Of a DNA stretch of 64,000 nucleotides, positions 1,412 to 10,245 are shown piece by piece (position 1 is the first letter of the stretch; each line of letters starts with the position of its first letter). Both the position numbers and the translations under genes were made by a program. The DNA is from Halogeometricum sp. S3BR5-2. GTDB lineage: Archaea; Halobacteriota; Halobacteria; Halobacteriales; Haloferacaceae. The stretch spans positions 62,001 through 126,000 of the forward strand of contig NZ_JAMQOQ010000002.1 in the NCBI RefSeq assembly GCF_031624635.1, in the 5' to 3' direction. The notes beneath the pieces are model-generated. The model was not told where the DNA came from and ran no database searches. It worked only from the letters and a program-made list of their open reading frames with translations.

Positions 1412-1496
1412 GCGGCCGAGACTCGCCGGAGCCGTTTCCTCCGCGGTTCGACGCCTCTCCTCGTTCGCTCGCCGGTGACCCCCAGTTCGCGTCGTC

Positions 1497-2111
1497 TCAC
1501 CCGTCGTCGCCGTCCCGGAGGCGGTTGCCGAAGAAGCCGACCAGTCCGTCGACGCGGCCGGTTCCGTAGAGCGCGACGAGTATCGCGCCGACGCCGTTGA
1601 ACATCAAGTCGGTGACGATGTCGTCGATGCCGTAGACGGTGACGAGACCGCCGAGGGCGAACTCCAGCACTTCCCAGAAGACCCCCGCCGCGAGGACGAA
1701 CACGACGATGAACACCGTTCTGAACTCGGAGGGGACCTCGATGTCGGCCGAGTGGAGTTCCAACGCCCGGAACGCCGCGTAGCCGAGTCCGGCGACGACC
1801 GTCGCCGAGAGCGTGTGCGTTATCTCGTCGTACCACTGGTACCTGTCGTAGAACCCGAGGAAGCCGACGACGTGGAGGAGCATCGAGAGCGTGACCCAGA
1901 CGACGAGGCCGGCGTCCATCCGGTAGCCGTACTCGCGGCGGAGCAGCGCCGGCAGGAACGTCACCCCGAGTCCGACGGCCCCCGACGCGACGAGCGGCGC
2001 TCGCAGGGTCGCGAGACCGTAACCGAACAGTCCCGCGAGGACGGCCTGCAGAACCCGCACGAGGGCTCGCTCGTGGGATTCGGACAGTCCCAGCGCGCCG
2101 CCGAGAGTCAC
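1497..2111 (-). CDS. Membrane protein, DUF2238/YjdF-like
   Basis: A 204-residue protein with about six hydrophobic segments. The pattern YDRYQWYDEITH around residue 90 and a later WEVLEFALGG...DIVTDLMFNGVGA stretch resemble the YjdF/DUF2238 family of membrane proteins, whose function is not established. The start is a GTG within a GTGA overlap with the stop of the upstream gene on the same strand, which decides the start and shows translational coupling. Both products are small multi-helix membrane proteins and may work together. No enzymatic motif is visible beyond the conserved acidic residues. Confidence 0.75.
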   Translation of the reverse strand: MTLGGALGLSESHERALVRVLQAVLAGLFGYGLATLRAPLVASGAVGLGVTFLPALLRREYGYRMDAGLVVWVTLSMLLHVVGFLGFYDRYQWYDEITHTLSATVVAGLGYAAFRALELHSADIEVPSEFRTVFIVVFVLAAGVFWEVLEFALGGLVTVYGIDDIVTDLMFNGVGAILVALYGTGRVDGLVGFFGNRLRDGDDG

Positions 2112-2695
2112 GACGTCTCCCCCTGGTCCGCCGACTCGCCGACGGCGCCGACCGGTTCGTACCGCGCGAAGTACAACTCGCAGAGGGCGCCCAGAACGGC
2201 CCCGACGACGGTGACGGCGACGATATCTCGCTGGAGCTCGGTCTGCGTGCTCAGGAACGCGCTCCCGAGCCACCGGTCGGAGTAGAACTGGGCGACGACC
2301 CACACCGCTTGCAGCGCCATCGTGGTCAGGACGCCGAAGACGACGGCGAACCGGCGACTCAGTTCGACCGCGGTGAACACGTCGAGTTCGACGACGAGGG
2401 CGAGCGCGAGCGTTGCGAGGGCGAGGTGGCCCGCGATTTCGCTCTGGAACCCCGTCTCTCTGGCGACCACTGCGACGGCGGCGACCACCGGGAGCGGCCA
2501 CGAGACCATCGCCGTCCACTCGCGGGTCGCGAGCGCAGGAACGGCGAGGACGGCCGCGATGACCAGCGAGAAGACGCCCCAGAGTGCCGCGCCGGCGACG
2601 AGGTTCTCGACGCCGCCCGACGCGACGACTCCCGTTGCTACCCATGCGATAGCGGCGTTCGTCCGTCGACCGCGAACGAGTCGATGAAGCGACAT
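2108..2695 (-). CDS. Multi-helix membrane protein of unknown function
   Basis: A 195-residue hydrophobic protein with about six predicted membrane segments and a short acidic C-terminus. The ATG at 2695 is preferred over further-upstream starts because the upstream 45 codons are Arg/Pro-rich and unlike haloarchaeal protein. The C-terminal end (DIVAVTVVGAVLGALCELYF) loosely resembles the end of the downstream partner, so the two may be distant paralogues. The stop overlaps the GTG of the downstream gene by four bases. No function can be assigned. Confidence 0.7.
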   Translation of the reverse strand: MSLHRLVRGRRTNAAIAWVATGVVASGGVENLVAGAALWGVFSLVIAAVLAVPALATREWTAMVSWPLPVVAAVAVVARETGFQSEIAGHLALATLALALVVELDVFTAVELSRRFAVVFGVLTTMALQAVWVVAQFYSDRWLGSAFLSTQTELQRDIVAVTVVGAVLGALCELYFARYEPVGAVGESADQGETS

Positions 2696-2866
2696 CGTGT
2701 CACGTTCGTCCGCCGTTCCTCGAAGGCGTGACCGCGGCGACCGGCGACGAACGGGCCGGTCTCTGGGTCTCCCCCGCTCGAACGGAGGGACCCGACCGCG
2801 GACGCGGGGCCGAATATTCGCCGCCCCCACGAGCGACGCCCGCTCGGAGACGCGAGGGTCCGCCGG

Positions 2867-3391
2867 CTATTCCTCGTCCTCGTCCTCGTCCTCTTCGTCT
2901 TCGTCGTCGTCGCCGTCGCTTCGCTCGTCCGCCTCCGACGACTCGGCGAACCGGTCTTCCCCCTCGCCGGTCGCCTCTCCGTCCCCATTCTCGTTCTCGT
3001 CTTCCTCGTCGTCCTCGTCCGTTCGTCTGGCCTCCACTTCGACCTCGGATTCGACCTCGAGTTCGTTCTCTCCGGTCCGCTCCAGTTCCGTCTCCGCTTC
3101 GACCTCCACTTCTACGCCTTCGCCCGTCTCGATTTCTACCTCGGTTTCGACCTCCGTCTCCTCTTCTCGGCCGTCCGCCCCGTCGACGGCCGGAACCGAC
3201 GCTCCGGACCCCGCGGAGCGAGTGGCGAAGTACGCCAGCGCGGCGCCCCCTCCGACGAGGAGGGCCGTGCGCGCGAGGCCGCACTTGGACGACTCGTCCG
3301 ACTCGACGGACTGCGCGTTCGTCGCCGGGGCCGACTGTTCGTCGGTTCCCGCTCCGGTTTCCTCGCCGCGGAAGAGCGCTTTCAGACTCAT
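2867..3391 (-). CDS. Single-pass protein with long Glu/Val/Thr-rich tail
   Basis: A 174-residue protein. Residues 1-35 are hydrophilic, a short membrane segment (ARTALLVGGGAALAYFATRS) follows at about 40-60, and the rest is an acidic low-complexity region. There, alternating Glu-Val and Glu-Thr steps (VEVEVEAETELE) give way to a pure Asp/Glu end. The alternating E-x pattern suggests an extended or beta-like solvent-exposed stretch, not a folded enzyme. The N-terminus MSLKALFRGEE recalls small haloarchaeal membrane proteins of unknown role. ATG 3391 was chosen because it begins this segment. It is transcribed away from the lower-G+C patch to its right. No function can be assigned. Confidence 0.6.
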   Translation of the reverse strand: MSLKALFRGEETGAGTDEQSAPATNAQSVESDESSKCGLARTALLVGGGAALAYFATRSAGSGASVPAVDGADGREEETEVETEVEIETGEGVEVEVEAETELERTGENELEVESEVEVEARRTDEDDEEDENENGDGEATGEGEDRFAESSEADERSDGDDDEDEEDEDEDEE

Positions 3392-3537
3392 GACATTCCC
3401 CGTTGTGCTCGCCCGAGGAAGTGCGTTTGGGCCTCGTCGGGTGGCGTCTCCGCTCTCGTGGGTCGAACGGGGACACTCACTCGACGGGGATTCGGTACCG
3501 CCGAGACGGATTTCGCTCGCACGTACATCCCACAAAA

Positions 3538-3551
3538 CGGACCCGATGGGA
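3538..3551 (+). repeat. Left copy of tRNA-Arg 3'-end sequence (candidate att)
   Basis: The sequence cggacccgatggga matches the complement of the tRNA-Arg 3' end (cggacccgacggga, 5385-5398) with one mismatch, and lies where base composition changes. The ATG of the following winged-helix fragment is inside it. A chance match cannot be excluded at this length. Confidence 0.45.
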
Positions 3552-3767
3552 GTCACGCGAGCGTCAGCGACGGACAGGTTTGCCCGCAAATTACTCGAAG
3601 TTCCGTACTTCACAGCGAACGACATCGTGCGAGAACTCGACGTATCACGCGGGACGGCGTACAACGCCATCGAGAACCTCGAAGATGCTGGCCTCATCGA
3701 GGGAGTCACCGGGGCGGAGTGGGGCCAAGAGTACAAGGCAGTGGAAGTGTTCGACGTGTTCGAGTAG
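3546..3767 (+). pseudogene. Winged-helix fragment resembling the C-terminus of Fic proteins
   Basis: A 73-residue product if read from ATG 3546. It contains one helix-turn-helix: YFTANDIVRELDVSRGTAYN, followed by a recognition helix and the end EYKAVEVFDVFE. This matches the C-terminal winged-helix domain found after the catalytic Fic (AMPylase) domain in many archaeal and bacterial Fic proteins, as I recall the family. The catalytic HPFxxGNGR part is absent upstream. The reading frame begins inside the left tRNA-like repeat, so the gene appears cut at the element boundary. It could alternatively be a stand-alone small DNA-binding protein that controls the downstream lipoprotein promoter. Confidence 0.55.
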
Positions 3768-3785
3768 ACCGATTCGGCGCGAAGG

Positions 3786-3819
3786 TTTAAGTCATAAACC
3801 GGGACCATCCCGGTTTATG
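3786..3819 (+). promoter_or_regulatory. Leaderless promoter with 12-bp-arm palindrome reaching into the start codon
   Basis: A perfect inverted repeat, arms cataaaccggga (3793-3804) and tcccggtttatg (3808-3819) with a 3-base centre, lies between the TATA-like tttaa at 3786-3790 and the lipoprotein ATG, which forms the end of the right arm. Spacing from the TATA-like box to the ATG is about 27-30 bases, as in leaderless haloarchaeal transcripts. The palindrome is placed to act as a repressor operator, or as a hairpin that sequesters the start codon if any leader is made. Confidence 0.6.
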
Positions 3820-5151
3820 CACCGTCGAACGTTCCTCACCTCGCTCGCACTCGCATCGACTGCTGGTTGTACGACGACGAAGTCTGACTCGGCCGTTGCA
3901 TCGTCTGGGGAGGACACGTCTCGTCCCTCCGAGACGACGACTGCGACGAGTGGACCAGTACAACGCTCGGTCGGAGAGTCGTACTCACGGCCCGACGGTG
4001 CTACCATTGCGGTTGCATCCGCTCGGTTCACCGGCGCAGCGCGGCTGGACGATGGAACCACAATTACTCCAGAGCAGGGTAACGCTTTGATCTTAGCTGA
4101 CGTCCGGGCAGCGAATACGGATGAATCGGTCGTCGACCTCCCTTCTCGTGACTCTCTGGCACTTATCACCGGTGGGAGCCAGTACCGGCCTCTCAGACCG
4201 AAGGGGAAACCGGGTGGGGAACCGACGCTGTCGTTCCCGCTCGGTGGAGCGCTTTACGAGACAGTCGAAGACGCCCATCCTAACGTCACCGCGCGGGGCT
4301 GGGTTTTCTTCGAGGCCCCGGCTGACTCGACGGAGTTCCGTATTTCGCTCTCCGATTCACAGTCGTCGACCTTGGAAGCGTATTGGGATGGAACGGTCGA
4401 CCCGAGTTCGCTTCCAGACGTGGAACTCACGTCTCTCGACGTTCCGGAAGAACAGATCAACGGTGATCCAATACAGCTCTCGGTGTCCGTGACGAACACC
4501 GGCGGGAGTGCTGGATTGTTCAACCAGCGGTTCTCTATCGTACGAAGCAACGAACCGAATACACCGGGCGGCACACTTGATGCGACAGTTGAGCCTGGCG
4601 AAACAGTAACAATCGAAAAGACGCTTCCGGCACAAGGGGTTCAAGACGTGACGGTCGCAGTACCTCCCGCGTTCGAGAAAACGACTCACGTCGTTCCCAC
4701 GAAGGCACAGTTTGGAAGCTCTCACGAGCTACCGAATGGTGTCCAACTTCGGGTAAGCAAACCGACCGTCAGTGATACGGTTTGGGTCGACCAAAACGGA
4801 GGTGGATCTGAGATCTACTCGATCGACAGGCGCTCGTTCGCTGTCTTCGAGATAACCGCGTGGAACCCGACGGAGTCGACTATCTCGGAGCCTGACGAGG
4901 ACTGGTTCGAGGTCGAAGGGAACGGGTTTGTCGATTCGAATTCGAATCGTGGATTTGCACGTGGACTGCGCGAACCAATCGAGATGCCATACTTCCGTGG
5001 TTCACGTGAGCTCACCCCCGGAGAAACGACGAATGGTGTCCTCTACTTCGACGTTCCGAAGAACACGAGTGTTGGCGAGATCGCCTGTCGAGTGAAATGG
5101 CCTGTGACCGAACGTACGAACCAGGTCTGTGAATGGAAGGTGGGTGAATAA
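3817..5151 (+). CDS. Tat-exported lipoprotein with CARDB-like domain
   Basis: A 444-residue predicted lipoprotein. The N-terminus has the twin-arginine motif HRRTFLTSLALAS followed by the lipobox TAGC, so the mature protein should be lipid-anchored at Cys 20 on the outer face. A Ser/Thr-rich linker follows. Next comes a segment with a conserved DVRAANTDESVVDL strand resembling DUF4352-type beta domains. A central CARDB-like beta-sandwich (SVSVTNTGGSAG...VTIEKTLP) follows, and a second DUF4352-like region with a DVPKNTS end closes the protein. G+C is clearly lower than in neighbouring genes. It lies in the putative integrated remnant, so transfer is likely. Function is unknown. Confidence 0.75.
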   Translation: MHRRTFLTSLALASTAGCTTTKSDSAVASSGEDTSRPSETTTATSGPVQRSVGESYSRPDGATIAVASARFTGAARLDDGTTITPEQGNALILADVRAANTDESVVDLPSRDSLALITGGSQYRPLRPKGKPGGEPTLSFPLGGALYETVEDAHPNVTARGWVFFEAPADSTEFRISLSDSQSSTLEAYWDGTVDPSSLPDVELTSLDVPEEQINGDPIQLSVSVTNTGGSAGLFNQRFSIVRSNEPNTPGGTLDATVEPGETVTIEKTLPAQGVQDVTVAVPPAFEKTTHVVPTKAQFGSSHELPNGVQLRVSKPTVSDTVWVDQNGGGSEIYSIDRRSFAVFEITAWNPTESTISEPDEDWFEVEGNGFVDSNSNRGFARGLREPIEMPYFRGSRELTPGETTNGVLYFDVPKNTSVGEIACRVKWPVTERTNQVCEWKVGE

Positions 5152-5277
5152 TCCAGACACACAGTTGCGTCCCCCGGAACTCACGATGGAATCGGTGGAG
5201 AGTGAAGCGAACGAAATCCCCACGAGTTCGTCACGCGTTCATCTCGAGTCGCCGTAGTCTGTCGATTAGAAGCGGAA

Positions 5278-5300
5278 CGGACCCGACGGGATTGAACCAC
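5278..5300 (+). repeat. Partial duplicate of the tRNA-Arg 3' end
   Basis: Bases 5278-5293 (cggacccgacgggatt) are identical to the complement of the tRNA-Arg 3' end at 5385-5400. The match resumes as gaacc after loss of one T. The copy covers the acceptor strand and T-arm, the usual core of tRNA-directed integration, and sits 107 bases from the intact gene. Confidence 0.75.
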
Positions 5301-5337
5301 GGTCGCTCGCTTCGCTCGCTCCCCGATTCAAATCCCG
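5287..5337. repeat. Inverted T-arm sequence forming a hairpin
   Basis: The arm cgggatt (5287-5293) pairs with aatcccg (5331-5337). The right side (gattcaaatcccg) is itself a T-arm sequence in the opposite orientation to the left copy. The loop contains the repetitive gctcgcttcgctcgct. This indicates that tRNA-derived fragments were duplicated in both orientations here. Confidence 0.5.
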
Positions 5338-5384
5338 CGGCTGTCGCTGATTCGTTCTCCACTTCGTTCCGAACAGAATCGTAG

Positions 5385-5457
5385 CGGACCCGACGGGATT
5401 TGAACCCGCGACATCTTGGTCCGGAACCAAGCACTCTGTCCACTGAGCTACGGGCCC
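5385..5457 (-). tRNA. tRNA-Arg (anticodon CCG)
   Basis: A 73-base cloverleaf without encoded CCA or intron. The acceptor strand GGGCCCG pairs with CGGGTCC (one G-U), followed by discriminator G. The D-stem is GCTC/GAGT. The anticodon stem CTTGG/CCAAG encloses the loop TTCCGGA, giving anticodon CCG, which reads CGG. The T-arm is GCGGG-TTCAAAT-CCCGT. A TATA-like cgttatac on the transcribed strand (about 5484-5490) lies some 27-30 bases before the 5' end. Partial copies of its 3' end lie downstream, suggesting use as an integration site. Confidence 0.97.
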
Positions 5458-5538
5458 TCGGAGTGAGTTACCGGCCGCCGGCGTATAACGATTGTGAACC
5501 GTTCGGACCCACTCGACGCGCCGCCGAGCGGTCTCCGT

Positions 5539-6537
5539 TCAGGGGGTCCACTGCACGGCGTGCTGTTCCTGGTCGTCGGTGCCGCTCTGTCCGACGACGA
5601 CGCCGCTGGCGTTTACGGCCGAGGCCCGACTCCGACCGATTCCGTCCGCCCGGAGCGTCCCGAGGTCGCTCAGTCGGCCGTCGGCCCAGTAGCACGCGTG
5701 CCCGACGCCCGCGTCGACCTGGCTCTCGCCGACGACCACGTCGCAGGCGACGTCGTACGCGTCGCTGTAGCCCGAGTTGTCGGCGCGGAACGTCCCGAGT
5801 TCGACGCGTTCGCCGTCGGTCCACATCGTCGCCGTCCGCGAGGCGAACTCCGCCGACCGCAGACTCCGCCCTACGACCGTCGTCGGGGTGGCGCCGAACG
5901 CTGCGCTCGCGTCGTCGCCGTCGAGTGCTCCGAGGTCGGTCATCCCTCCCCGCTCGGTCCACCGGAAGGCGTGGACGGGGCCGTCGTCCGTCTCGCTGTA
6001 CCCGACGACGCTCCCGTCGTCGACCGCCGCCGTGGCGGCGCTCCGACCCTCGCCGTCCGAGCGGAGCGTCCCGAGTCCGTGCATTCCCTCGGTCTCCGTC
6101 CAGCGGAACGCACGGACGACGTCGCCGTCGGCGGCGGCGTGTCCCACGACGGTCCCGCGGTTGTCGACTCCGTGCGCGCGGCTGCTCGTCGGTCCGTCCC
6201 CGAGGGACCCGAGAGGTTCGACCGTTTCGTCGTCGACCCAGCGTACCGCCCGCCACTCCCAGTCGTCGTCCTGCGCGCTCCCGACGGCGGTGCCGCGGGC
6301 GTCGACGGCGGTCGCCTCGCTGTTGCCCCGCCCGTCGGAACGGAGCGCCGGCAAGGGCGTGGGTACGGGCGTCTCGTCCGGGTCCCGGTCCGCTTCGGCC
6401 GCCCAGCGGACCGCCCGCGTGAAGACCGCCCCCTCGACCCGACCCTCGCTCGACCCGACGACGGTTCCGCGTTCGTTCAGGTCGGCCGCGTCGCTGATCT
6501 CTCCGCCCTCCAGCGTTCCGAGGTCTACGAGGTCCAC
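5539..6537 (-). CDS. HAF-repeat protein
   Basis: A 332-residue protein made of about seven copies of a roughly 45-residue repeat. Each has a core of the type GTVVGxSxxDDxxxHAFRWT followed by GMxDLGTL, the signature of HAF-repeat proteins, which are thought to form extracellular beta-propellers. The GTG at 6537 was chosen because the product then begins directly with the first repeat (VDLVDLGTLEGG). The frame stays open further upstream to about 6693, so a longer N-terminus is possible. No clear signal peptide is seen with either start. Function is unknown. An upstream promoter points to an out-of-frame ATG (see findings). Confidence 0.7.
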   Translation of the reverse strand: MDLVDLGTLEGGEISDAADLNERGTVVGSSEGRVEGAVFTRAVRWAAEADRDPDETPVPTPLPALRSDGRGNSEATAVDARGTAVGSAQDDDWEWRAVRWVDDETVEPLGSLGDGPTSSRAHGVDNRGTVVGHAAADGDVVRAFRWTETEGMHGLGTLRSDGEGRSAATAAVDDGSVVGYSETDDGPVHAFRWTERGGMTDLGALDGDDASAAFGATPTTVVGRSLRSAEFASRTATMWTDGERVELGTFRADNSGYSDAYDVACDVVVGESQVDAGVGHACYWADGRLSDLGTLRADGIGRSRASAVNASGVVVGQSGTDDQEQHAVQWTP

Positions 6538-6743
6538 CGTGACTCCCGTCTCGTCTTCGGGGCGTCGCTCGGACGTTCCGACCGACTCGACTGGCGTTCG
6601 ACTCGTCCGCGTGGGTCTCCGCTCATCTCGATAGTGAACTCCGTGCGCGCATATAACGATTGAGAATCTCACGCACGGACGACCGTACAGCACCCCTGAA
6701 AAAGAACTTTCCCAGAGAGGAGTCTTCTGGAGAGAGTACGTAT

Positions 6744-8372
6744 ATGCGACAACAGCATCACGGGGGCGGTTCGCACTCGGTCTCCAGACGGAACTACCTC
6801 CGGGCGGTCGGCGCCGCCGGCGTCGCGGGACTCGGCGTCCGCGCCGGTAGCGCCGAGGCGGCCGCGGCGAGTCCGTGGACGGTTGTCGCCATTCCGGACA
6901 CGCAGAAGTACGCGGAGAGTTCGTCGCTCATCTCCCGGGCGCACGCCCAGACCGACTGGATTCGAGCCAACAGAAGCGCCGAGAACATCGCCTTCGTCAG
7001 CCACGAGGGCGACCTGGTCGAACACGGCAGCAGCACCACCGAGTGGCAGCGGATGGACGCCGTGATGGACAAACTCGACGGGGTGGTGCCGTACGGGACG
7101 ACCATCGGGAACCACGACTACGCGACCACCAGTAACCGCTCGTCGAGCCTCGCGAACTACAGCAAGTACTTCGGGAAGGCGCGCTACTCCGGCAAGAGTT
7201 GGTATCTCGGAGCAGGGCCGGGCGACCGAGCGCACTACCAGCGGTTCTCCGCGGGCGGATACACCTTCCTCCACGTGAACTTGGAGTGGGGCGTCCCCGG
7301 CACCGTCTCGGACTCGGGGACGCTGATGGGGTGGGCCGACGACCTGCTCGCGAGGTACGCGAACACGCCGACTATCGTCACCACGCACTCGTATCTCTGG
7401 GACAAATCGGGCGCCGAGGGGCACGGCGGACAGCGGAGCGGAGCCAACTCCGGACTGGACATCTACCGGAACCTCGTCCGGCGGCACCCGCAGGTGTTCA
7501 TGGTGCTCGGCGGGCACTTCCACTACACCGACGGGCAGTGGAAGCAGACCTCGACGAACGCCGCGGGGACGGCGGTGTACGAGATGCTCGCCGACTACCA
7601 GCACTACGCCAACGGCGGCGACGGCTGGATGCGACTGATCAAGTTCGTCCCGGACGGCGGGTCGGGGTCGCTGGACCGCGTCTCGGTGCGAACGTACTCG
7701 CCGAGTCGGAAGCAGTACAAGACCGACGGCCGCAGCCAGTTCTCCTTCGATTTCGACTTCGCCAGCCGGTTCGGCCAGCCCTCCTCCGGGTCGGACTCGG
7801 GGTCCTCGGGCGGGACCACCGGCACCGCGACGTTCCAGCAGGGGTCCGGCGGCTACGCGGGGACCCAGGACACCTACCTCCGGGAGGCCTCCCCGACCAC
7901 CGGGTACGGCTCCGCGACGACGCTCACCGTCGACACGGACGAACCGTCGAAGTCGGGGAGACGGACGCAGGGGCTGCTCCGATTCGACAGCATCGTCGGC
8001 ACCGGGTCCGGACAGATTCCGGTCGGGTCGACGGTCACCTCCGCGAAGCTGTCGTTCCAGACCGTCGACCCGGGTAACGGGGCGTCGCTCCACCGCATGC
8101 GGACGAAGTGGACCGAGTCGGACACGTGGTCGTCGCTCGGAAGCGGCGTGCAGACCAACGACGTGGAGGCCGCCTCGACCGCCGACGCGAAGACGGGGAC
8201 GACGACCGCCGGCGCGACCACCGTCGACGTGACCAAGAGCGTCGCCGCGTGGGCCGCCGGAGCGGCGAATCTCGGGTGGGTGCTCGTCCCCTCGGGCAGC
8301 AACGGCTGGGACTTCTACTCCTCGGAGGGGTCGACGCCGCCGAAACTGATCGTCACGTACCGGCGTCCGTGA
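6744..8372 (+). CDS. Secreted metallophosphoesterase with DNRLRE (CBM96-like) domain
   Basis: A 542-residue exported protein. The N-terminus has a Tat signal (SRRNYLRAVGAAGVAGLG) with an Ala-rich cleavage region. A calcineurin-like phosphoesterase domain follows with the expected metal motifs in order: PDTQ, GDLVEHG, GNHD, TTHSYLW and GGHFH. After a Ser/Gly linker near residue 355, the C-terminal 180 residues form a beta domain with DTYLREASPTTGYG and GLLRFD, typical of DNRLRE or CBM96 domains that attach enzymes to polysaccharide. It probably hydrolyses a phosphoester outside the cell; the substrate is unknown. It is divergently oriented from the HAF gene. Confidence 0.88.
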   Translation: MRQQHHGGGSHSVSRRNYLRAVGAAGVAGLGVRAGSAEAAAASPWTVVAIPDTQKYAESSSLISRAHAQTDWIRANRSAENIAFVSHEGDLVEHGSSTTEWQRMDAVMDKLDGVVPYGTTIGNHDYATTSNRSSSLANYSKYFGKARYSGKSWYLGAGPGDRAHYQRFSAGGYTFLHVNLEWGVPGTVSDSGTLMGWADDLLARYANTPTIVTTHSYLWDKSGAEGHGGQRSGANSGLDIYRNLVRRHPQVFMVLGGHFHYTDGQWKQTSTNAAGTAVYEMLADYQHYANGGDGWMRLIKFVPDGGSGSLDRVSVRTYSPSRKQYKTDGRSQFSFDFDFASRFGQPSSGSDSGSSGGTTGTATFQQGSGGYAGTQDTYLREASPTTGYGSATTLTVDTDEPSKSGRRTQGLLRFDSIVGTGSGQIPVGSTVTSAKLSFQTVDPGNGASLHRMRTKWTESDTWSSLGSGVQTNDVEAASTADAKTGTTTAGATTVDVTKSVAAWAAGAANLGWVLVPSGSNGWDFYSSEGSTPPKLIVTYRRP

Positions 8373-8406
8373 ACGTCCGACCTCGACCGAACCTCACGCT
8401 CGCTCG

Positions 8407-9882
8407 TCACTTCGGGGCGGCGTCCGCGCGGTCGATGACGGACTGCTTCCACGTCCCGCGGGTGAACCACGCGGCGGCCGCGACGGCGCCGAGAATCTGC
8501 CCGACGGCCATCCCGATCCAGATGCCCGACTCCCCGAAGTCCAGGACGAACGAGAGGTAGTAGACGATGGGGACGCGACCGACCCAGAGAGCGAACAGCG
8601 AGAACGCCAGCGCGGTCTTCGTGTTGCCCGCGCCGCGGTAGGCCCCGAGGACGGTCTGGAGGACGCCGATGAAGCCGAACTCGAAGGCGCGGACGCGGAC
8701 GTACTCGGCGCCGAGTTCGATGGTCCGCGCGGCCGAGTCGGTGCCGGTGCCGATGAAGACGCCGACGATGGGTTCGGCGAAGACGTAGGCGACGACGCCG
8801 ATGAGGAGCATCACCGCGGCGCCCACCTTCGCGGCTAGCCACACCGCCCGCTCGGCTCGGTCCGGTTTCTGCGCGCCGAGGTTCTGCCCGACGATGGTGT
8901 CGGTCGCCCGACCCAGTCCGAGCGCCGGGAGGAAGACTAGCGAGGTGAGTCGGTTGCCGAGGCCGTAGGCGGCGACGACTTCGGGCGTGAACGTGACGAC
9001 CATGGCGGTCAGGGTGATGAAGCCGAGGGCGCTCGCGGACTGTTCGAGGGCGCTGGGAACGCCGAGGCGGACGATTTTCTCGATGTACTCGCGCCGGGGG
9101 ACGAAATCGCCCAGCGAGACGTCGGGGCCGGCGTCGGTCCAGAAGATGACGTAGAGACCGACGACCGTCGCCACCAGGCGCGACAGCACCGTCGCCACGG
9201 CGGCGCCCGTGACCCCGTAGCCCGCGAAGCCGGTGAGGCCGAACAGCGAGGCTTCGAGGCCGGGGACGCCGAGCATCCCGAACAGGGGGTTGTTCTGAAA
9301 GCCGAAGATGAAGATGGGGTCGACGACGACGTTGATGGCGACGCTGATGAACATCACGACCATCGGCGCGCGCGTGTTGCCGTACCCGCGCATGAGCGAG
9401 GAGAACACGAAGAAGCCGAACAGGAAGGGGAGGCCGAGGAAGAACACCCGCATGTAGTCGCCGGCCAGCGGGATGACCTGTCCGGCCGTCGCGGCCGAAC
9501 TCGGCAGGACGCCGAGCATCAGGTCCGTCGCGAAGAAGCCGAGGAGGCCGACGGCGACGGCGATGGCGGTGATGAACGTGAACGTCTGCCCGGCGACGAC
9601 GCCGGCCGAACCCTCCCGCTTCGCGCCCGTGTACTGCGCGACGAGGATGGTCCCCGCGACGGTGAACCCGCCGCCGACCGAGATGAGAAGGAATATCAGG
9701 GGAAACGCGAGGCTGATGGCGGCGACGGCGTCCGTCGAGAGGCGGCCGAGCCAGACGGTGTCGGCCAGGTTGTAGGCGACCTGGAGCAACTCGGTGACGA
9801 TGATGGGCCACGCGAGCGCGAACATCGGTCGTTTCAGGTCGCCCTCGGTGAGCGACGCACCGTCGGGCGATGTTGGAGGCAC
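8407..9882 (-). CDS. MATE family multidrug/cation exporter
   Basis: A 491-residue protein with twelve predicted membrane helices in two homologous halves. Family-typical features include PIIVTELLQVAYNLADTVWLG in the first helix and the repeated pattern GYGNTRAPM and YRGAGNTKTAL in equivalent positions of the two halves. Such proteins expel cationic compounds in exchange for sodium or protons. The start is GTG at 9882; a TATA-like cttaacaag lies upstream on the same strand. It is convergent with the metallophosphoesterase. The particular substrate cannot be told from sequence. Confidence 0.92.
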   Translation of the reverse strand: MPPTSPDGASLTEGDLKRPMFALAWPIIVTELLQVAYNLADTVWLGRLSTDAVAAISLAFPLIFLLISVGGGFTVAGTILVAQYTGAKREGSAGVVAGQTFTFITAIAVAVGLLGFFATDLMLGVLPSSAATAGQVIPLAGDYMRVFFLGLPFLFGFFVFSSLMRGYGNTRAPMVVMFISVAINVVVDPIFIFGFQNNPLFGMLGVPGLEASLFGLTGFAGYGVTGAAVATVLSRLVATVVGLYVIFWTDAGPDVSLGDFVPRREYIEKIVRLGVPSALEQSASALGFITLTAMVVTFTPEVVAAYGLGNRLTSLVFLPALGLGRATDTIVGQNLGAQKPDRAERAVWLAAKVGAAVMLLIGVVAYVFAEPIVGVFIGTGTDSAARTIELGAEYVRVRAFEFGFIGVLQTVLGAYRGAGNTKTALAFSLFALWVGRVPIVYYLSFVLDFGESGIWIGMAVGQILGAVAAAAWFTRGTWKQSVIDRADAAPK

Positions 9883-10038
9883 TGAACGTGTAGCAGGACG
9901 TAACTTCTTGTTAAGCCGTCGAAACGGGAACAGACGGCCGGATATTTCGAATCGAAACGGTATCCTCGCGCGTCGACCGCGCCGCGTCGAGGCGGGCGGT
10001 CAGTCGGAAACGACCCGTTCGGAACTAAACTTTCGGTG

Positions 10039-10245
10039 TCAGAGCGGATGCGTCTCGTCGGCGCCCGTCGCGCCGTCGACGGCCTCGCGAATCGCCTCGA
10101 CGTCCCCCGCGTGGAGCAGTTCGTCCAGTTCCGCCTCCGACACCCCGTCGGCGAGTCGGGCGACGGTGTCCGCGAACGTCTCCGCGGGACGGTTGCGCGC
10201 TTCGATGAACTCGTAGACGTCGTCGTCGAGGCGACCCGAACTCAT
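10039..10245 (-). CDS. Small acidic protein resembling VapB-like haloarchaeal proteins
   Basis: A 68-residue acidic protein, with the pattern DDDVYEFIEARNRPAETFADTVARLA near the N-terminus. This resembles small haloarchaeal proteins with a ribbon-helix-helix-like fold sometimes annotated as VapB-type antitoxins. No PIN-domain toxin gene lies next to it, so it is either an orphan or has another role. A TATA-like box (complement of cttaaat at 10277-10283) lies about 35 bases upstream. Assignment to the antitoxin group is tentative. Confidence 0.65.
   Translation of the reverse strand: MSSGRLDDDVYEFIEARNRPAETFADTVARLADGVSEAELDELLHAGDVEAIREAVDGATGADETHPL

Follow-up and report, generated by a model that had tools for sequence, protein, structure and literature searches.

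The window, which is the whole 64,000-nucleotide stretch of Halogeometricum sp. S3BR5-2 DNA analysed here, carries beside a tRNA-Arg(CCG) gene a G+C-poor patch that holds an intact lipoprotein gene and the 3' end of a Fic gene, and this patch lies between copies of the tRNA 3' tail (Table 1).

Table 1. Features at the tRNA-Arg(CCG) locus, in window coordinates
Feature	Position	Strand	Basis or remark
Decayed tRNA-tail copy (13/14) and left half of a type M hairpin unit; left boundary	3538-3570	+	
Winged-helix C terminus of a SoFic-like Fic gene	3568-3768	+	DNA 88% identical to the 3' end of the intact G031 gene
Inserted DNA	3571-5268	n/a	missing from congeners G001 and G004; 57.4% G+C
Intact 444-aa lipoprotein gene; RR signal, lipobox, DUF4352	3817-5151	+	Pfam
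Remnant of a type A cassette end	5174-5231	+	81% identical to the tail-adjoining type A end in G002
Type D end arm abutting the core	5243-5277	+	83% identity with the G074 D end
Arm repeat TAGTCTGTCGATTA in the type D arm	5255-5268		offset -23 from the core; two mismatches (repeat scan)
Exact 16-base tRNA-tail copy; right boundary (core) of the inserted cassette	5278-5293	+	sequence
Older tail-plus-hairpin unit of 106 bp, from the insert to the tRNA	5278-5384	+	adjoins the tRNA in G001 and G004; further out in G002
tRNA-Arg(CCG)	5384-5457	minus	ARAGORN; Rfam RF00005, 65.6 bits
Integration core, the 3' tail of tRNA-Arg(CCG)	5385-5400		
MATE-type transporter gene, conserved right-hand framework	8407-9882	minus	cluster cl2; beside the same tRNA in Haloferax and congeners

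The tail copies and the empty sites

An earlier note on this DNA had read the patch as the remnant of an integrated element reaching from position 3538 to the tRNA. The tail copy that it described at 5278 was confirmed, with sixteen exact bases followed by a one-base gap and gaacc, and the exact 14-mer CGGACCCGACGGGA occurs at two sites only in the whole 4.66-Mb genome, namely the tRNA tail and this copy. The 13/14 match that it reported at 3538 is not significant taken alone: the window contains 7 matches to the 14-mer at ≤2 mismatches where 7.5 are expected, and 22 sites in the genome match with one mismatch. Chance was nevertheless rejected as its source by congener synteny. The homologous place holds an exact tail copy in congeners G001, G003, and G004 and a copy with a single mismatch in G002, followed in all four by a related hairpin unit, and the copy at 3538 is therefore genuine and decayed. 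Stretches 94-97% identical to this boundary occur in G001 and G002, with an aligned unit in G004. The type M hairpin unit measures 66-69 bp and is present whole at many junctions of relatives. An Rfam search of window positions 2400-6600 returned the tRNA as its sole match, the hairpin units matching no known structured RNA.

Alignment to the same locus in relatives, which the earlier note had proposed, revealed the insert missing and its flanks joined in G004 and G001. In G004, only 37 bp separate position 3563 from 5272, and the flanks align at 91% over window 1475-3563 and at 92% over 5272-9958; in G001, window 3537-3570 is aligned, and a spacer of 21 bp leads from 3570 to 5269. Each of these genomes keeps three successive tail copies (the tRNA counted) with hairpin units between them. 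Because this tail-hairpin row exists where the insert does not, the 106-bp unit next to the tRNA predates the insert, which runs only from the 3538 copy to the 5278 copy and not to the tRNA itself.

The insert is also the lowest-G+C 1698-bp stretch in the window (57.4% versus a mean of 68.8%, s.d. 2.9). The patch is thus low in G+C as had been claimed, though at this value, with a local minimum of about 55%, and not at 52-53%. In the four Haloferax genomes that have the cassette it is G+C-poor there too, with 56-57% in the lipoprotein gene against 66-67% in katG and the MATE gene. The finding that the earlier note had held against its own reading, namely the lipoprotein and winged-helix gene at this place in most relatives with normal composition, was not made, the cassette being present in 0 of the 4 congeners. 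That the low G+C of the patch is a local trait of ancestral DNA, with tRNA-tail matches arising by chance, would agree with the chance level of the 3538 match by itself; this reading deserves hardly any credence, since it is refuted by the empty sites and has against it the congener synteny of the tail copies, the orientation bias of the cores described below, and an identity to Haloferax above that of the flanking genes.

The cargo of the window cassette

The "winged-helix gene" of the earlier note is what remains of a truncated Fic gene, namely its C-terminal end. About 320 N-terminal Fic codons are missing in the window and the start arm is lost too, and the hairpin unit is broken within its loop. 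In G031, where the Fic gene is intact, it has Fic_N and Fic domains and a SoFic match in PADLOC. The lipoprotein has counterparts at 86-87% identity in Haloferax gibbonsii and H. massiliensis; PADLOC gave it no defence annotation, Pfam gave DUF4352 only, and structure prediction yielded no reliable model (mean pLDDT 38.9). In both of these species an intact Fic gene lies upstream of the lipoprotein gene, and in H. gibbonsii the pair is flanked by katG on one side and by the same tRNA-Arg(CCG) on the other, the MATE gene coming after the tRNA. Judged from these sequences, the window patch is a truncated form of a 3.06-kb Fic-lipoprotein cassette.

The DNA identity to H. gibbonsii is 89.6% for the cassette, 82.3% for MATE, and 79.9% for katG. 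In the lipoprotein gene, dS between the window and H. gibbonsii (0.23) is below the 0.33 found between two Haloferax species, and dN/dS is 0.20-0.28. An identity above that of neighbouring genes, a dS lower than the inter-Haloferax value, and a low dN/dS together indicate that the cassette arrived by horizontal transfer and that the lipoprotein gene is still under purifying selection.

A cassette hotspot in relatives

A search of the family with junction sequences recovered related junctions in Haloferax (g28), in genus g27, which is near Salinigranum (one plasmid match), and in the window's genus (type A only). The pattern of core plus S arm was present in 13 of 170 family genomes, and a reversed control pattern gave 0 matches. 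Across 38 loci, each oriented by the tRNA or by a tail, with cores counted at ≤1 mismatch, 82 cores lie in the orientation of the tRNA and 0 in the opposite one. The segments that these cores bound are small cassettes of 0.95-3.1 kb. Their cargo types are PemK with a wHTH protein (950-955 bp, one of 1045), PIN12 with a DUF7437 wHTH protein (1369-1373 bp), an 88-aa protein with a VapC-like PIN protein (999-1005 bp), MNT with a partner, a DUF7342 pair (1258-1260 bp), and Fic with or without the lipoprotein (3057-3065 bp for the Fic-lipoprotein form). Open reading frames grouped as cl37 were rejected as genes, being positioned opposite the PemK pairs. The recurring framework is katG, array, tRNA, and MATE. 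One genome per species was compared, with gain and loss of cassettes judged across species only; between species, the order of cassettes is reshuffled while their orientation and length are constant.

In G073 (L104 7880-9000; G073:C21:42323), a VapC-like cassette with cores and arms stands amid other genes, about 22 kb from the tRNA-Arg(CCG) copy on the same contig, and arrays can therefore become separated from the tRNA. A TnpB/OrfB-type gene with OrfB_IS605 and Cas12f1-like TNB domains (L107 5757-7100) borders the G076 array on its outer side. In the window, the gene at 5539-6693 on the minus strand has 72-76% G+C, encodes a repetitive protein with a weak DUF3466 match, and adjoins the tRNA in the window's genus. 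The outer border of the hotspot is formed by a gene at 2867-3391, also on the minus strand, whose protein consists for half its length of a long, extremely acidic, low-complexity sequence and has no Pfam match.

Shared ends and the arm repeat

Directly after the core comes a start arm, which is S2 in the DUF7342 and most Fic-lipoprotein cassettes and S otherwise, and the cassette closes before the next core with a type A, B, or D end arm. Arms of the same kind enclose unrelated cargo. Within the class that begins with S and ends with B and that carries PemK, PIN12, or VapC-like genes, cassettes of different cargo show an identity of 80% over the first 55 bp, 77% over the last 100 bp, and 36% in the middles, which is the random level. 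In alignment A2, the row G075_PemK was left out. An arm repeat, CTGTCnnnCGATTA, lies at exactly +54 from the core in 18 cases and at -21 to -23 in 8, always on the same strand; near cores it occurs only at +54 or about -22, in cassettes lacking an integrase and in integrase elements alike. The repeat scan found the -22 repeat absent from type B ends. We interpret this layout of core and arm repeats as resembling the attP of a tyrosine integrase with its arm sites. Junction repeats of at least 66 bp are nearly identical within one array. The free form of the B-core-S junction had 0 matches in plasmid and phage records, and core-arm patterns had 0 matches in viral contigs.

It could be argued that the shared ends are conserved promoters and terminators of toxin-antitoxin (TA) operons, to which the tail copies are incidental, as the ends are non-coding and contain palindromes. 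We consider this very improbable. Relative to the PemK and PIN12 genes the S arm is on the 3' side, but relative to the VapC-like and integrase genes it is on the 5' side, and it is therefore not a regulatory element of one gene end; moreover, relatives of the cargo are found elsewhere without the ends, and the core orientation of 82:0 also speaks against a transcriptional role.

Integrases at the hotspot

The earlier note had suggested a search for an integrase whose attachment site matches the tail copies, and a family that uses the same 14-bp core was indeed found at the same tRNA in relatives. Integrase genes adjoin cores in several arrays, and most arrays now have no adjacent integrase. 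One clade, 64-90% identical, comprises the integrases of G191, G192, and G079 and one of the two H. massiliensis genes; it accompanies S or S-like arms, with an S-arm fragment in H. massiliensis. The 2.37-kb element of G191 stands at an intact tRNA-Arg(CCG) and consists, in order, of core, S arm, intact integrase gene, genes for a wHTH protein and a ParE-like toxin (PF05016), a D-like arm, and the tRNA. Its integrase shares 43.1% identity over 95% with the SNJ2 integrase, and the hotspot integrases fall within the SNJ2-like family as delimited by ≥30% identity over 60% of the protein (PMC8371274). They match PF00589 (Phage_integrase), two of the matches being below the curated cut-off, and an alignment of nine of them retains the tyrosine-recombinase residues in the R, K, HxxR, and HYD blocks. 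Recombination at the tRNA-Arg(CCG) tail would be their predicted activity.

No parent integrase element was found for the S2/A class of cassettes. A search of the window's own genome found no cognate integrase; the best relative, 40% identical to the G079 integrase, is on another contig with no core nearby. Since the window copy thus has no matching integrase in sight and lacks one of its ends, it is probably dead and immobile.

Two elements of the hotspot have further features. The integrase element of G079 at tRNA-Arg(CCG) (L145 1244-16238) is 15 kb long and has many metabolic-looking genes, by eye a dehydrogenase, an aconitase-like gene, and a gene for a thiamine-diphosphate enzyme, with no obvious virus genes. 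In G002 (L034, ~9960-10060), the DNA immediately 3' of the tRNA, within an integrase-bearing element, holds a degenerate copy of the tRNA-Arg anticodon region in inverted orientation.

Discussion

In this study, we read window positions 3538-5293, with a probability of roughly 0.8, as the decayed remnant of a horizontally acquired Fic and lipoprotein cassette that integrated site-specifically at the 3' end of tRNA-Arg(CCG), within a multi-cassette system that would be mobilised in trans. The empty sites, together with the integrase elements that have the same core at the same tRNA, support the earlier view of the patch as a remnant of an integrated element. That view is refined here in that the patch appears to be one cassette of a multi-cassette system and not the leftover of a single virus or plasmid.

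The proposed mechanism is as follows. Small cassettes, mostly of toxin-antitoxin or defence genes and without an integrase, accumulate in tandem behind tRNA-Arg(CCG), each bounded by a tRNA-tail core and by attP-like arms that are also found on the autonomous SNJ2-like integrase elements of this site. Cassettes would be inserted and excised through recombination of the tail cores by an integrase supplied in trans. In the window, the left hairpin unit now runs straight into the middle of the Fic gene, owing to a deletion that also removed the start arm. The tail-bounded architecture, the empty sites, the arms across unrelated cargo, the fixed spacing of the repeat, the same arms on integrase elements, horizontal transfer, and the reshuffled order are all shown by the sequences; movement of integrase-less cassettes in trans by SNJ2-like integrases most likely lies behind them. 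Against this mechanism stand the absence of core-arm sequences from the plasmid, phage, and viral-contig collections, the type B ends without the -22 repeat, the S2/A class for which no integrase element was found, and the present lack of an adjacent integrase in most arrays. The wider reading, on which our judgment is evenly balanced, is that this haloarchaeal family has an integron-like system built on a tRNA tail, in which an SNJ2-type integrase acting in trans moves single-module TA or defence cassettes of about 1-3 kb into and out of tRNA-Arg(CCG) arrays and between genera, the tRNA being the fixed platform.

Two alternatives dispense with trans mobilisation. Ordinary tandem accretion followed by decay, in which each cassette lost its own integrase by deletion after insertion, has in its favour that integrase loss from integrated archaeal elements has been described (PMC8371274), that the window copy is itself truncated, and that larger integrase-bearing elements are present at the site. 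We find it doubtful, though worth keeping in view. Independent decay would be expected to leave varied lengths, and the near-constant length of each cargo type across species and array positions counts against it, as do the many cassettes with both ends intact and the order reshuffled between species; a single ancestral loss with vertical inheritance would leave the transfer across genera unexplained. Alternatively, homologous recombination between repeated tails and arms, together with general gene exchange among haloarchaea, might shuffle cassettes without any integrase action. The near-identical junction repeats within an array would suffice for such exchange, but neither the origin of both arms and the core on new cargo nor the fixed spacing between arm repeat and core is explained in this way, and we hold it to be unlikely. 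The constant lengths and shared arms seem to be explained less well by integrase loss or homologous recombination than by an integrase acting in trans.

The closest precedents appear to be arrays of CIMEs with tandem accretion and the ssrA islands of Dehalococcoides. Like CIMEs, the cassettes have attachment sites (cores and arms) at both ends and cargo only, with no recombinase or transfer genes, and the S arm and arm repeat are common to them and to the integrase elements of G191 and G192; the window copy itself does not retain two functional attachment sites, as its start arm is lost and its 3538 core mutated. The Dehalococcoides islands are arranged in tandem, 15 of them without an integration module, and have been likened to cis-mobilizable elements (PMC3146451). 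They resemble the present arrays in standing behind one RNA gene, in being bounded by direct repeats of its 3' end, and in having an integration module in some only. However, they are bacterial islands at a tmRNA gene and depend on a serine recombinase, in place of the tRNA-Arg and SNJ2-like tyrosine integrase of the archaeal arrays, and the haloarchaeal cassettes differ from them as single modules of about 1-3 kb, mostly TA, of near-constant length, whose arms are conserved across unrelated cargo. In archaea, too, integrated elements that are in tandem or have no integrase have been noted (PMC8371274; PMC6563490). With SNJ2-like proviruses and plasmids (PMC8371274; a core of 13 bp is reported for SNJ2 itself), the hotspot shares an integrase 43% identical over 95% and a short core in a tRNA 3' end, but most cassettes here have neither an integrase nor recognisable virus or plasmid genes, and the target is tRNA-Arg(CCG).

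Integrons offer a likeness of another kind, as arrays of interchangeable small cassettes in fixed orientation on one platform, many of them TA modules and presumably moved in trans. In contrast to integrons, the junction core here is a tRNA tail with attP-like arms and not attC, the platform is a tRNA gene and not attI beside intI, and the integrases are SNJ2-like, with several arrays lacking any. Tycheposons are tyrosine-recombinase elements that target tRNA genes, and their repeated tRNA pieces record successive insertions; by description they differ from the haloarchaeal cassettes in hosts and recombinases and are far larger. Our literature search, outside of which most subscription journals lay, found no report of a haloarchaeal tRNA gene with arrays of TA cassettes that have attP arms in common.

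If this reading is true, archaea possess an integron-like platform for defence cassettes that uses tRNA-tail recombination, which would explain both the spread of TA and Fic modules between halophile genera and their clustering at one tRNA. The fixed arm repeats would define an attP, and trans mobilisation thereby becomes directly testable. The modest 1.7-kb low-G+C patch of the window would then represent a transfer from a Haloferax-like donor, with its lipoprotein gene still under selection.

In G011 (L043, reverse strand, oriented 9602-9727), tRNA-Arg(CCG) is interrupted ahead of the T arm by some 51 additional nt and is found by ARAGORN only with introns allowed. A tRNA remnant beside an integrase in Haloferax G083 (L113 5431-5530) carries a similar hairpin insertion. 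Possibly, these insertions represent a non-canonical tRNA intron carried by an element.
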